Of a stretch of 64,000 nt of DNA, positions 15,533 to 18,849 are shown piece after piece. Under the pieces are notes generated by a model that had not been told where the DNA came from, made no database searches, and worked only from the letters and a program-made list of their open reading frames with translations. Position 1 is the stretch's first letter. Each line of letters starts with the position of its first letter. Source of the DNA: Phycisphaera sp. (GTDB taxonomy: Bacteria; Planctomycetota; Phycisphaerae; Phycisphaerales; UBA1924). The position numbers were made by a program, and so were the translations under genes. Where the stretch lies: assembly GCA_025916675.1 (NCBI GenBank), contig CP098402.1:3095205-3159204 (forward strand). Direction: 5' to 3'.

Positions 15533-16405
15533 GTGCGCGAACGCGAACTCCTCCAACGCATCGCCGACCGATCGGCCACCCTTCCCGATACCTACGGCCA
15601 GGTTCTCGTCGGTCCGGGCGACGACTGCGCCGTCATCGAAGCGAGCCCCCACCCGCTGCTGCTCACCACCGACCACCTCGTCCAGCACCGCCACTTCGAT
15701 GACGCGCTGCCGATCGAACTCGTCGCGCGCAAGGCGATCGTCCGCTCGGTCAGCGATATCGCCGCCATGGCCGGCACGCCCGCGTGGGCCCTCGCCACCG
15801 CGCTGCTGCCCGTTGGGTATCAGCCCGCCAACGAGCTGTTCGACCACATGGCCCGCTTCGCCCGCGAGTTCGGCTGCCCGCTCGTGGGCGGAGACATCGC
15901 CACGTTGCCGCCCGGCACGCCCGGGCCGATCTCCCTCACCGTCACCGTCGGCGGCCACGCACGCAAGCCCATCCTTCGTAGCAGCGCGCGCGTGGGCGAC
16001 CACGTCTACGTCACCGGCCCACTCGGCGGCTCGCTCGTGAACCACCGCCACGCGCTCGCCACGCCGCGCGTCGGGCTCGCGCAGCAACTGGCCGAAGACA
16101 TCCACGCGATGATCGACCTCTCCGACGGCCTGGGCATGGACGCCGCCCGCGTCGCCCGCGCCTCGAACGTGCGCCTCGAGCTCGACGCTGCCGCCATCCC
16201 CATCCACCCCGACGCGAAAGACCTCAACGCCGCCCTGGGCGACGGCGAGGACTACGAGCTCCTCTTCACCGCGCCCGCCGACGCCAGCATCCCCGATTCC
16301 ATCAACCGCATCGGCCGCGTGACCAACGGCCAGCCCGCCGCCATCCTCATCACATCCGACGGCAGCCAACGCGAAGTTTCGGCCCAAGGATTCGAGCATG
16401 GCTGA
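15533..16405 (+). CDS. thiL: Thiamine-monophosphate kinase
   Basis: Phosphorylates thiamine monophosphate to thiamine diphosphate with ATP. The 290 residues show VGPGDDCAVIE, LTTDHLVQHRHF (family TTDxxVExxHF), VARKAIVRSVSDIAAMAGTPAWAL, GCPLVGGDIAT, MIDLSDGLGMDAARVA and LGDGEDYELLFT. It is slightly shorter than usual (about 320), from a compact middle and C-terminus. GTG start 15533. It overlaps tsaE by 8 bp, so the two are probably translated together. No thiamine riboswitch is seen upstream. Confidence 0.92.
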   Translation: MRERELLQRIADRSATLPDTYGQVLVGPGDDCAVIEASPHPLLLTTDHLVQHRHFDDALPIELVARKAIVRSVSDIAAMAGTPAWALATALLPVGYQPANELFDHMARFAREFGCPLVGGDIATLPPGTPGPISLTVTVGGHARKPILRSSARVGDHVYVTGPLGGSLVNHRHALATPRVGLAQQLAEDIHAMIDLSDGLGMDAARVARASNVRLELDAAAIPIHPDAKDLNAALGDGEDYELLFTAPADASIPDSINRIGRVTNGQPAAILITSDGSQREVSAQGFEHG

Positions 16406-17024
16406 AGCAATCGAAACCAACTCGCCCCAGCAAACCGAAGCCTGGGCCAAGCGACTCGCCACCACCCTCAAGGGCGGCGATATCCTCGCCCTCGAGGGCG
16501 ACCTGGGCGCGGGCAAAACAACACTGGTCCGCGGCCTGGCCGCCGGCTTGGGCATCGACCCCGCCAAGGTCTCGAGCCCCACGTTCGCGCTGATGAACGA
16601 GTACGAGGGTTCGGGTCGAACTCTGGTCCATATCGACGCCTACCGCATGAACAGCCCCGAAGAACTCGCCGGCCTGGGCTGGGATCGCCTGACCGACGAC
16701 AACACCATCGTCATCGCCGTGGAATGGCCCAGCAAGGTCGAGGGCTCATTGCCACCCGAGCGCACAACCACCATCACCCTCGAACACATCGGCGAGAGCC
16801 TCCGCGCCATCACACTCACCCCCCCGCGCGGCTGGACCACCTGCCCCACCACCGGCAAGCGGGTGCCGCCGGGCAGCCCCACCTGGCCCTTCATCGACGA
16901 GCGGGCCCAGAAGGCCGACCTCTACGGCTGGTTCGCCGGCACGCACACCATCAGCCGCCCCTTCGACCCCGAACGCGACGACCCGACGGAACTGCCGCAG
17001 GCATCCGAAGACGAAGAGACCTGA
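16398..17024 (+). CDS. tsaE: TsaE tRNA t6A-synthesis ATPase with a YacG-like tail
   Basis: TsaE is the ATPase of the TsaBDE complex that makes N6-threonylcarbamoyl-adenosine at tRNA position 37. Residues 1-140 are a normal TsaE: P-loop GDLGAGKTT (34-42), SSPTFALMNEY (59-69), HIDAYRM (78-84) and VIAVEWPSK (105-113). The remaining 65 or so residues are extra. They include CPTTGKRVPPGSPTWPF and DERAQKADLYGWFAGTH (149-183), which track the small zinc protein YacG (CPxCGK...FRPFCSxRCxxIDLGxW) with three of the four zinc cysteines replaced by Thr151/152, Ile166 and Ala170. This fusion is unusual. It ends 6 bp from the convergent PEP-CTERM gene. Confidence 0.9.
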   Translation: MAEAIETNSPQQTEAWAKRLATTLKGGDILALEGDLGAGKTTLVRGLAAGLGIDPAKVSSPTFALMNEYEGSGRTLVHIDAYRMNSPEELAGLGWDRLTDDNTIVIAVEWPSKVEGSLPPERTTTITLEHIGESLRAITLTPPRGWTTCPTTGKRVPPGSPTWPFIDERAQKADLYGWFAGTHTISRPFDPERDDPTELPQASEDEET

Positions 17025-17030
17025 TCGCGA

Positions 17031-17603
17031 TCACCGCCGCCGACGCATCGCAAGCACGCCCAGCGCCAGCAGCGACGCCGAGGCCGGGGCGGGGATGACG
17101 TAGATGGTGGCCGAGCCCTCGGTGAGGTCGGCCAGGCGGGAGGCGCCGCCGACGCAGCACTCCCGAAGGTACACGGCGTAGTCCCGGGTCATGGTGGCGA
17201 CATCCACGTCGAAGGGTGCCGCGGGATCGACAGGCGCGGTGTACGTCGCTTGCCAGAACCCCATCGGGTTCGTCGGGTCGGCGATGAAGTCCGAAGGGAT
17301 GTGGTACTGGCCGGTGATGATCTGGTCATAGCCGGTCGCCGATGGGAATCCGTCTTGCGTGCCCGGGCCATCCATCGGGGCCAACCGCATCGCATCACTC
17401 CAGCCCTCGCTCCCGACAGACGTCAGCAAGTCGGTCTGCACGGCCGCCATCGCGTAGTCACTGGAGTCAAACCCCGCGTACAACGTAACAACCGTGCTCT
17501 CGCCCGGCATCAGCGTCGGGCTCGCCACGTCGATCGTGATCTCGTACTGGGCCAGCGCGGTGCCCGCGAGCGCGAAGACGGCGATTGTTGTAATCCGGAT
17601 CAT
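17031..17603 (-). CDS. PEP-CTERM-like secreted protein, tandem copy 3
   Basis: A 190-residue member of a three-gene tandem family. It has a signal peptide (residues 1-19, cut after LAQ), a beta-rich domain that starts QYEITIDVASPTLMPGESTVVTL, a conserved ADPTNPMGFWQATYTAP segment, and a C-terminal sorting tail: VIPAPASASLL, hydrophobic residues, then RRRR. Such tails direct proteins to an exosortase-like processing system. Last gene of the trio, 31 bp below copy 2. It has an extra CC pair (RECCVGG) that the other copies lack. Function unknown; a choice-of-anchor-type extracellular role is inferred only from the tail. Confidence 0.8.
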   Translation of the reverse strand: MIRITTIAVFALAGTALAQYEITIDVASPTLMPGESTVVTLYAGFDSSDYAMAAVQTDLLTSVGSEGWSDAMRLAPMDGPGTQDGFPSATGYDQIITGQYHIPSDFIADPTNPMGFWQATYTAPVDPAAPFDVDVATMTRDYAVYLRECCVGGASRLADLTEGSATIYVIPAPASASLLALGVLAMRRRR

Positions 17604-17634
17604 GGGATTCCTCCTTGGTTGGTGGCGCAACAAC

Positions 17635-18213
17635 TCACCGCCGCCGCCGCGCGGCGGCCAGCAGCCCCAGCGCCAGCAGCGACGCCGAGGCCGGGGCGGG
17701 GATGACGTGGATGGTGGCGGAGCCTTCGACCAATTCGATGAGGTGGCTCTCGGAAAAGGAACTCGTCCTTTGAACATACACGTCGTACCGCCGGGTTCTC
17801 GTTGAAAGGTCGACGTCGAAGGAAACGGCAACATCGAGAGGGGCGGTGTAGGTCACTTCCCAGAACGCGATCGGGTTGGTCGGGTCCGCATAGAGACCCG
17901 CGCTCGCGGAATGGATCTGCCCTGCGATGATGCCGTCGTAACCGGTCGACGACGGGCTGCCGGCTGAATGGCCAGGGCCATCCATTGGTTCCACGACGGC
18001 TGCATCGCCCAAACCAACCGTGCCAGTCGAGACGACGAGTCCAGTCCCGATCCCCGCCATCGCATAGAGCGCAGGATCGAAGCCGGCCTTGAGCGTCACC
18101 ACCGTGCTCTCGCCCGGCATCAGCACCGGGTTCTCCACGTCGATCGTGATCTCATACTGGGCCAGCGCGGTGCCGGCGAGCGCGAGGACGACGGTTGTTG
18201 TAGTTCGGATCAT
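17635..18213 (-). CDS. PEP-CTERM-like secreted protein, tandem copy 2
   Basis: A 192-residue paralogue of its two neighbours, with the same layout: signal peptide (cleavage after LAQ), YEITIDVENPVLMPGESTVVTL, ADPTNPIAFWEVTYTAP and the tail VIPAPASASLLALGLLAAARRRR read as motif, membrane stretch and arginine cluster. The first 20 codons and the ribosome-site region (GGAAGAATCCC before ATG) are nearly the same as in copy 3, while the middle (residues 45-110) has diverged. It is 27 bp downstream of copy 1 and probably in one transcript with it. Confidence 0.8.
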   Translation of the reverse strand: MIRTTTTVVLALAGTALAQYEITIDVENPVLMPGESTVVTLKAGFDPALYAMAGIGTGLVVSTGTVGLGDAAVVEPMDGPGHSAGSPSSTGYDGIIAGQIHSASAGLYADPTNPIAFWEVTYTAPLDVAVSFDVDLSTRTRRYDVYVQRTSSFSESHLIELVEGSATIHVIPAPASASLLALGLLAAARRRR

Positions 18214-18240
18214 GGGATTCTTCCTTGGTGATTCAAAAAC

Positions 18241-18849
18241 TCACCGCCGCCGCCGCGCGGCGGCGAGCAGCCCCAACGCCAGCAGCGACGCCGAGGCCGG
18301 GGCGGGAATGACGCGGATGGTGGCGGAGCCTTCGACCAGTTCGGAGAGGCGGCGCTCAGATGCTGCACCGTCCATGGCGAGGTACACGTCGTACGTACTT
18401 GTCATCGTCGACAGATCGATATCGAAGGGGGCGGTCGCGTCAGCAGGGGCCGTGTAGGTGGCTCGCCAGAATGCAATCGGGTTGGTCGGATCGGCATAGA
18501 TGCCCGCGGTGGGGAAATTGAATTGGCCTGCCCCGATGGTGTCGAAGCCGGTCGCCGACGGCGTACCGGGTGACGTGGCCGCCCCACGCATGGGGTCCAG
18601 TTCCATCGCATCACTCCAACCATCGCTCCCAACGGACGTGCGGAAGTCCGTGATGACCCAGGCCATGGCGTACATTGTGGGATCGAACCCCGCGAACATC
18701 GTCACCACCGTGCTCTCCCCCGGCAGCAGCACCGGGTTCTCCACGTCGATCGTGATCTCGTACTGGGCCAGGGCGGCGGCCGGCAGGGTGGCACCGATGG
18801 TCAAGGCCGCGAGGATGGTGCGGAGACGCGTGGTGTGATGAGTGATCAT
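18241..18849 (-). CDS. PEP-CTERM-like secreted protein, tandem copy 1
   Basis: The first and longest (202 residues) of the three tandem paralogues. It has a longer, differently composed signal peptide (RTILAALTIGATLPAAALAQ), then the family domain with YEITIDVENPVLLPGESTVVTM, SVGSDGWSDAMELDPM, ADPTNPIAFWRATYTAP and the same VIPAP...RRRR tail. The start at 18849 follows AGGAGG at good spacing. The GSEGWSDAM-type segment is shared with copy 3 but not with copy 2, so copy 2 has diverged most in that part. Divergent from the exbB-type gene, with about 196 bp between starts. Confidence 0.8.
   Translation of the reverse strand: MITHHTTRLRTILAALTIGATLPAAALAQYEITIDVENPVLLPGESTVVTMFAGFDPTMYAMAWVITDFRTSVGSDGWSDAMELDPMRGAATSPGTPSATGFDTIGAGQFNFPTAGIYADPTNPIAFWRATYTAPADATAPFDIDLSTMTSTYDVYLAMDGAASERRLSELVEGSATIRVIPAPASASLLALGLLAAARRRR

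Follow-up and report, generated by a model that had tools for sequence, protein, structure and literature searches.

The window, by which we mean the whole stretch of 64,000 nucleotides that was analysed, encodes a protein in which TsaE, the ATPase of t6A synthesis, runs on into a predicted zinc-free YacG domain that is under selection. The gene (16398..17024; all features are on the + strand unless marked otherwise) is one open frame of 208 amino acids, in a genome that consists of one contig with a completeness of 99.97%. A sequence-only reading had already proposed that TsaE is fused here to a domain descended from YacG whose zinc cysteines have been lost, and the matches to PF02367 and PF03884, together with the relatives, bear this out. 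We lean, if only slightly, towards an explanation in which the YacG domain attached to TsaE holds its fold without zinc, docks on GyrB and restrains gyrase.

The ATPase domain (residues 8-133; 16419..16796) is recognised as TsaE by PF02367 (E 7.4e-38; 129.8 bits against a cut-off of 26.6) and by TIGR00150 (E 9.9e-33). Residues 34-42, GDLGAGKTT (16497..16523), form the Walker A motif. As in TsaE/YjeE of these two families, the ATPase domain is whole, with Walker A, HxDxYR and EW; unlike them, the window protein adds a C-terminal YacG domain. Seven residues of Walker A and other conserved positions (G37, G39, K40, T41, D80, E109 and W110) are invariant in 21 aligned sequences, the window's among them. 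Partners are available in the window genome, where TIGR03723 and TIGR03725 find TsaD and TsaB, both above cut-off. In the full AlphaFold2 model residues 11-140 have pLDDT block means of 92-98, and all nine Foldseek matches of this model at E <= 0.001 are TsaE structures. Going by its sequence, then, the protein is TsaE, the switching ATPase of t6A synthesis, with the conserved residues in place.

The YacG domain takes up residues 148-191 (16839..16970), as defined by PF03884 and by alignment with relatives whose cysteines are intact. An acidic C-terminal extension (residues 192-208; 16971..17021) follows it, read from the sequence and modelled with low confidence. The similarity to YacG that had been suspected is found by profile search, though below the PF03884 cut-off of 25.5 bits: the whole protein matches with E 0.0018 (18.4 bits) and the tail alone with E 1.6e-4 (21.7 bits), and the tail also gives weak matches to two NCBIfam models for YacG (E 3e-4 and 0.012). 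Against a profile made from 31 stand-alone YacG sequences in the class, whose stretches were themselves located with a profile built from fused forms, the tail scores 23.4 bits; in the shuffle control 16,761 of 20,000 shuffled tails were reported, with a top score of 10.5 bits. At E <= 1, PF03884 matches 12/12 zinc-free fusions of one alignment (A2; best 3.1e-6) and 21/21 rows of another that holds both zinc and zinc-free fusions (A1; best 3.1e-14). A 21-row profile that combines fusions with and without the zinc site finds the E. coli YacG structures 1lv3 (E 1.2e-6) and 4tma (E 1.8e-6), and a profile of four tail rows, two of them zinc-type, finds an E. coli YacG structure at E 1.6e-10.

Structure prediction says less about the tail than about TsaE. 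Residues 151-208 of the full AlphaFold2 model are weak (pLDDT block means 50-62). Modelled alone, the tail has a mean pLDDT of 71.8 and a pTM of 0.44, with 81-87 in tail residues 11-40, and its secondary structure is strand-strand-helix. Foldseek ranks chains K, J and I of 4tma and 1lv3 first for this model, with E from 0.12 to 2.6, none of them significant, and the model leans toward YacG because the alignments included two zinc-type YacG rows (L178, L179). What settles the match below the cut-off is a four-cysteine YacG at the same place in relatives. Judged by these intact domains and by the profile matches to 1lv3 and 4tma, the tail shares descent with zinc-binding YacG. Its core CP..G, PF, R, DL..W and I aligns with YacG (PF03884; 1lv3, 4tma), with the Trp at the same position. 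It differs in that three of the four zinc cysteines are missing and in being part of TsaE, whereas E. coli YacG is a free protein of 65 residues. YacG is a treble clef of the TRASH family, and several treble-clef families show variable loss of zinc residues, according to excerpts of PMC4999995.

The whole window protein finds matches in 58 of 61 genomes (its own and 60 relatives), while a search of 198 class genomes with PF03884 gives matches in 139 at E <= 0.01 and above the cut-off in 134. We read 67 tsaE loci in the order, namely the 58 whole-protein matches and nine chosen for having a YacG match; those of G139, G213, G233, G024, G027 and G058 are outside this count. YacG is fused to tsaE or directly next to it at 64 of the 67 loci (in the same open frame at 48, immediately downstream at 16), so that the outcome by which the earlier reading would have been refuted, a tail absent from close relatives or not conserved in them, was not observed; G014, G046 and G050 have no YacG at the locus. 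By fused we mean one frame with no stop between the domain matches, irrespective of start codons; 216-270 bases separate the two matches in G045, G025 and G035 though these are scored fused, and most relatives are draft genomes, in which frameshifts may mislead the scoring. Four cysteines (C-C-C-C) are found at 38 loci, 22 fused and 16 adjacent. A degenerate zinc site is found at 26, every one of them fused, from 20 genera that all belong to the window's family. Fusion extends further than the loss of zinc, as four cysteines remain at 22 of the 48 fused loci, and since zinc loss is close to a single event on the tree, its occurrence only in fusions represents few independent cases.

In the window's genus (seven genomes) only 6 bases separate the two domain matches; among the 19 other degenerate forms the gap is 48-87 bases in 17 and 216 and 270 bases in two. 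Some relatives have a thiL-tsaE-yacG run of genes, and in others tsaE and yacG are one reading frame. Record L178 (Phycisphaeraceae bacterium OFTM326) has yacG directly after the tsaE stop codon with no shift of frame, so that the loss of one stop would fuse the genes; record L177 (Phycisphaerales bacterium S146_42) is a zinc-free fusion. The 31 stand-alone YacGs that were read in the class all keep four cysteines, which is to be expected, since 28 come from the 30 best scorers of the PF03884 class search and three were added to these. In a phylum scan of 392 genomes, all of the matches listed that reach profile position 195 or beyond, out of 200, come from the window's order. A TsaE-YacG fusion is not named in the titles and abstract openings of the open-licence PMC literature on YacG and TsaE, a part of the literature that leaves absence unproven.

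Is the fused domain the only YacG of its genome? When 36 genomes were searched again with PF03884 at E <= 0.5, the fused tail was the best match in 26/26 degenerate genomes, and none of these 26 had a second YacG above the cut-off; in this six-frame search the fused tail itself is above the cut-off in 11/26. The window genome has weak extra PF03884 matches (E 0.012 and 0.41), as do 13 of 14 control genomes. G139 (f1) gives no PF03884 match at all at E <= 0.5, and no YacG above the cut-off was found in G027 and G014 of the zinc-free branch or in G046, G050, G058, G213 and G233 of f2, some genomes of this kind being incomplete. In G014 (L066), which lies inside the zinc-free branch, TsaE stops at the linker and there is no YacG domain. 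With YacG absent or below the cut-off in G014, G027, G139 and the f2 genomes, the domain seems to be dispensable.

The zinc positions of the window protein read C149, T152, I166 and A170 (C-T-I-A), and the pattern CxxC...CxxxC is absent. The Thr, Ile and Ala given for cysteines 2, 3 and 4 by the sequence-only reading are therefore correct; it also placed residues 147-188 rightly at 16836-16961, but the sequence it quoted omits I166 between PF and DERA. C149 (16842..16844), at zinc position 1, is the sole cysteine of the protein, and this position is Cys in 26/26 degenerate and 38/38 intact forms. In the degenerate forms the position of T152 (16851..16853), which replaces zinc cysteine 2, is Thr in 24/26 and Ser in 2/26; that of I166 (16893..16895), which replaces cysteine 3, is non-Cys in 26/26 (Ala in 14, Ile in 4); and that of A170 (16905..16907), which replaces cysteine 4, is Ala in 24/26, with Leu in G009 and Cys in G010. 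As G010 reads C-S-A-C, zinc cysteine 4 is gone in 25/26.

The rest of the domain has been kept. C149, F165, D174 and W178 occur without exception in the 26 degenerate and the 38 intact forms, P164 in 26/26 and 34/38 respectively, and L175 and R187 in 25/26 and 24/26 of the degenerate ones. By alignment of the tail profile with chain I of 4tma, W178 (16929..16931) is the equivalent of residue 40 of E. coli YacG; with D174 and L175 beside it, the window carries both the residue-40 Trp and DL..W. The degenerate forms also have derived residues in common, P161 (25/26) and D167 (20/26) besides T152 (or Ser) and A170, and the loop consensus of their branch is P-P-D-S-P, where the window has P-P-G-S-P. 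Over seven congeneric genomes (21 pairs) pN/pS is 0.33 for tail residues 145-190 and 0.42 for TsaE residues 8-141. By these comparisons the remainder of the YacG domain is under purifying selection in the zinc-free branch.

A GyrB tree of 72 genomes places 26/26 degenerate genomes in one branch of 30 rows (SH-aLRT 99). G037 is missing from this tree, GyrB is partial in G036, G013 and G014, and the GyrB of G043 seems part foreign (a long branch, with 94% identity to G055 over 627 residues only); of these five genomes only G014 is in the degenerate branch. The other rows of the branch are G160, which is fused with four cysteines, and G014, G024 and G027, which have no scored tail. At least six changes between fusion and separate genes are required on this tree, rows without a scored tail being excluded. 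A single zinc loss in a strict clade was rejected (26 degenerate against 37 intact, AU p 0.0065), because G160 (L091), with its four-cysteine YacG fused to TsaE, nests among the degenerate genomes. In G024, the sister of G160, a fragment of a four-cysteine YacG lies at the end of a contig (L403). Either the domain was replaced by an intact one in G160 and G024, or the zinc losses were parallel. Replacement would be the better account, because the degenerate forms share the derived residues T152, P161, D167 and A170, and because the 12 tails most like that of G160 are all intact (43-50% identity); the nearest relatives of its TsaE part are a mixed list. Two side observations concern GyrB itself: G043 has two GyrB-like genes on separate contigs (L101, L134), and several f6 genomes have an additional GyrB-like gene that is shorter, at about 640-660 amino acids.

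What could a YacG without zinc be doing? According to the review PMC10886550, YacG places a Trp inside the GyrB core, while its C-terminal region spans GyrB and GyrA. An excerpt of PMC5507300 has residue 40 of YacG meeting a GyrB region partly formed by F513; the paper writes F40 there, while residue 40 is Trp in the 4tma sequence. Binding of YacG to gyrase was found in E. coli lysate (passages of PMC8196013). Docking of the zinc-free domain on GyrB is what we infer as best fitting these data. Its fold would be held without zinc by small core residues, by the clade-specific loop and by the tether to TsaE; the domain would still dock, through the conserved Trp, on the TOPRIM pocket of GyrB; and it would restrain gyrase, at a one-to-one ratio with TsaE. 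The earlier reading had spoken of a former gyrase-binding module that may now dock TsaE to some other protein. Here we differ, as conservation of PF, DL, W and ISR, including the Trp by which YacG reportedly enters GyrB, makes retained gyrase binding at least as likely.

The GyrB side does not discriminate. F513 is kept in the window's GyrB and in 26/26 degenerate genomes, and also in all 34 intact genomes that gave the motif (four others did not) and at the three loci without YacG. Being kept with degenerate, intact or no YacG, F513 had to be given up as a marker of co-evolution. As an observation apart, three zinc-free genomes, G023 (L141), G029 (L143) and G225 (L154), have Leu or Ile in place of Phe directly behind the F513 equivalent, and G233, a genome without YacG above the cut-off, also has Leu there.

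Another possibility, which we hold to be rather unlikely, is zinc economy: small zinc-knuckle proteins of this lineage would be shedding their structural zinc, and YacG would have lost its site for that reason, with its function unchanged. As this would explain why zinc was lost, it can hold together with docking on GyrB. The only L36 match of the window genome (L260, C1:2038978-2039091) and its only L31 match (L261, C1:322365-322562) are without most of their zinc ligands, and zinc-free L31 or L36 occurs in several groups of the order. Forms of L31 and L36 that are predicted not to bind zinc and are made under zinc limitation are known (excerpt of PMC13343924). Among 73 genomes searched, 71 have an L36 match and 70 an L31 match; 70 sequences of each were read, leaving out the L36 of G058, and called zinc-free by reading their cysteines. 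By this judgement L36 is zinc-free in 10/24 genomes with degenerate and 14/38 with intact YacG, and L31 in 24/24 and 30/37; two degenerate genomes have no L36 match, and two degenerate and one intact genome no L31 match. On these readings, small zinc sites tend to be lost in this order, but the losses do not go together: zinc loss from L31 and L36 does not track that from YacG, and so we rejected zinc economy as a lockstep cause. The retention of a zinc-knuckle fold after loss of its ligands has parallels in the zinc-free (C-) L31 and L36, in the U-box and in other treble clefs (parts of PMC4999995). The zinc-free form of L31 and L36 is known as an alternative copy (PMC13343924), whereas here there is no other YacG above the cut-off; and the window's YacG, unlike them, is fused to another protein.

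It is also possible, but unlikely, that YacG has taken on a new structural or regulatory role as an appendage of TsaE or the TsaB/TsaD complex and that gyrase binding is gone. The 6-base gap in the window's genus, set against the longer gaps of the other degenerate forms, suggests integration into TsaE, and the clade-specific T152 (or Ser), P161 and D167 speak of a changed domain. It is not obvious, however, why a pure appendage would keep the Trp, D and PF in 26/26 forms and the L in 25/26. Very improbable is that YacG became useless after the fusion and is now an eroding passenger. The zinc ligands have gone, to be sure, and G014 is missing the domain, but a tail whose pN/pS is lower than that of TsaE, a consensus common to 20 genera, and a first cysteine and Trp kept in 26/26 appear to leave decay largely refuted. 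That the tail resembles YacG by chance, as its single-sequence score below the Pfam cut-off might suggest, we can dismiss, given the four-cysteine YacG in the same place in relatives and the shuffle test.

If the domain does dock on GyrB, several further suggestions can be made, with less confidence. ATP-bound TsaE joins TsaD-TsaB and departs in its ADP form (passages of PMC9654439). With TsaE coming to TsaD-TsaB and leaving it in this cycle of ATP and ADP, YacG could be hidden or free depending on the state of t6A synthesis, and its availability to gyrase could follow that state. Such a coupling between t6A synthesis and gyrase is speculative. The occurrence of TsaE and YacG fused or adjacent across the order is a "Rosetta stone" hint in the same direction, that t6A synthesis is linked to control of gyrase, a link unreported in the literature searched. 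The more elaborate proposal that TsaE-YacG is a two-headed regulator between the ATP state of t6A synthesis and DNA gyrase, metal-free in one family, where its lone cysteine could add control by redox state, seems to us improbable. The link of translation to DNA topology that the sequence-only reading had raised is possible, and the joining of TsaE to YacG, with loss of the zinc site under continued selection in one branch, makes a link between translation and supercoiling testable. Separate genes, fusions with zinc, fusions without zinc and loss of the domain form a natural series on which tests can be made directly, and the fusions without zinc may teach us how a regulator of the treble-clef kind outlives its metal.

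As to the surroundings of the gene, thiL, encoding thiamine-phosphate kinase (15533..16405; TIGR01379, E 1.6e-59), overlaps the start of tsaE by 8 bases at its 3' end in the window. It stands 5' of tsaE on the same strand at 56/67 loci, the window genome counted; several of the remaining 11 loci without a thiL call had short stretches. On the other side, convergent to tsaE-yacG, 17031-18849 (-) holds a tandem of three similar exported-looking proteins with short PEP-CTERM-like tails, two of which match PF07589 weakly, below the cut-off.
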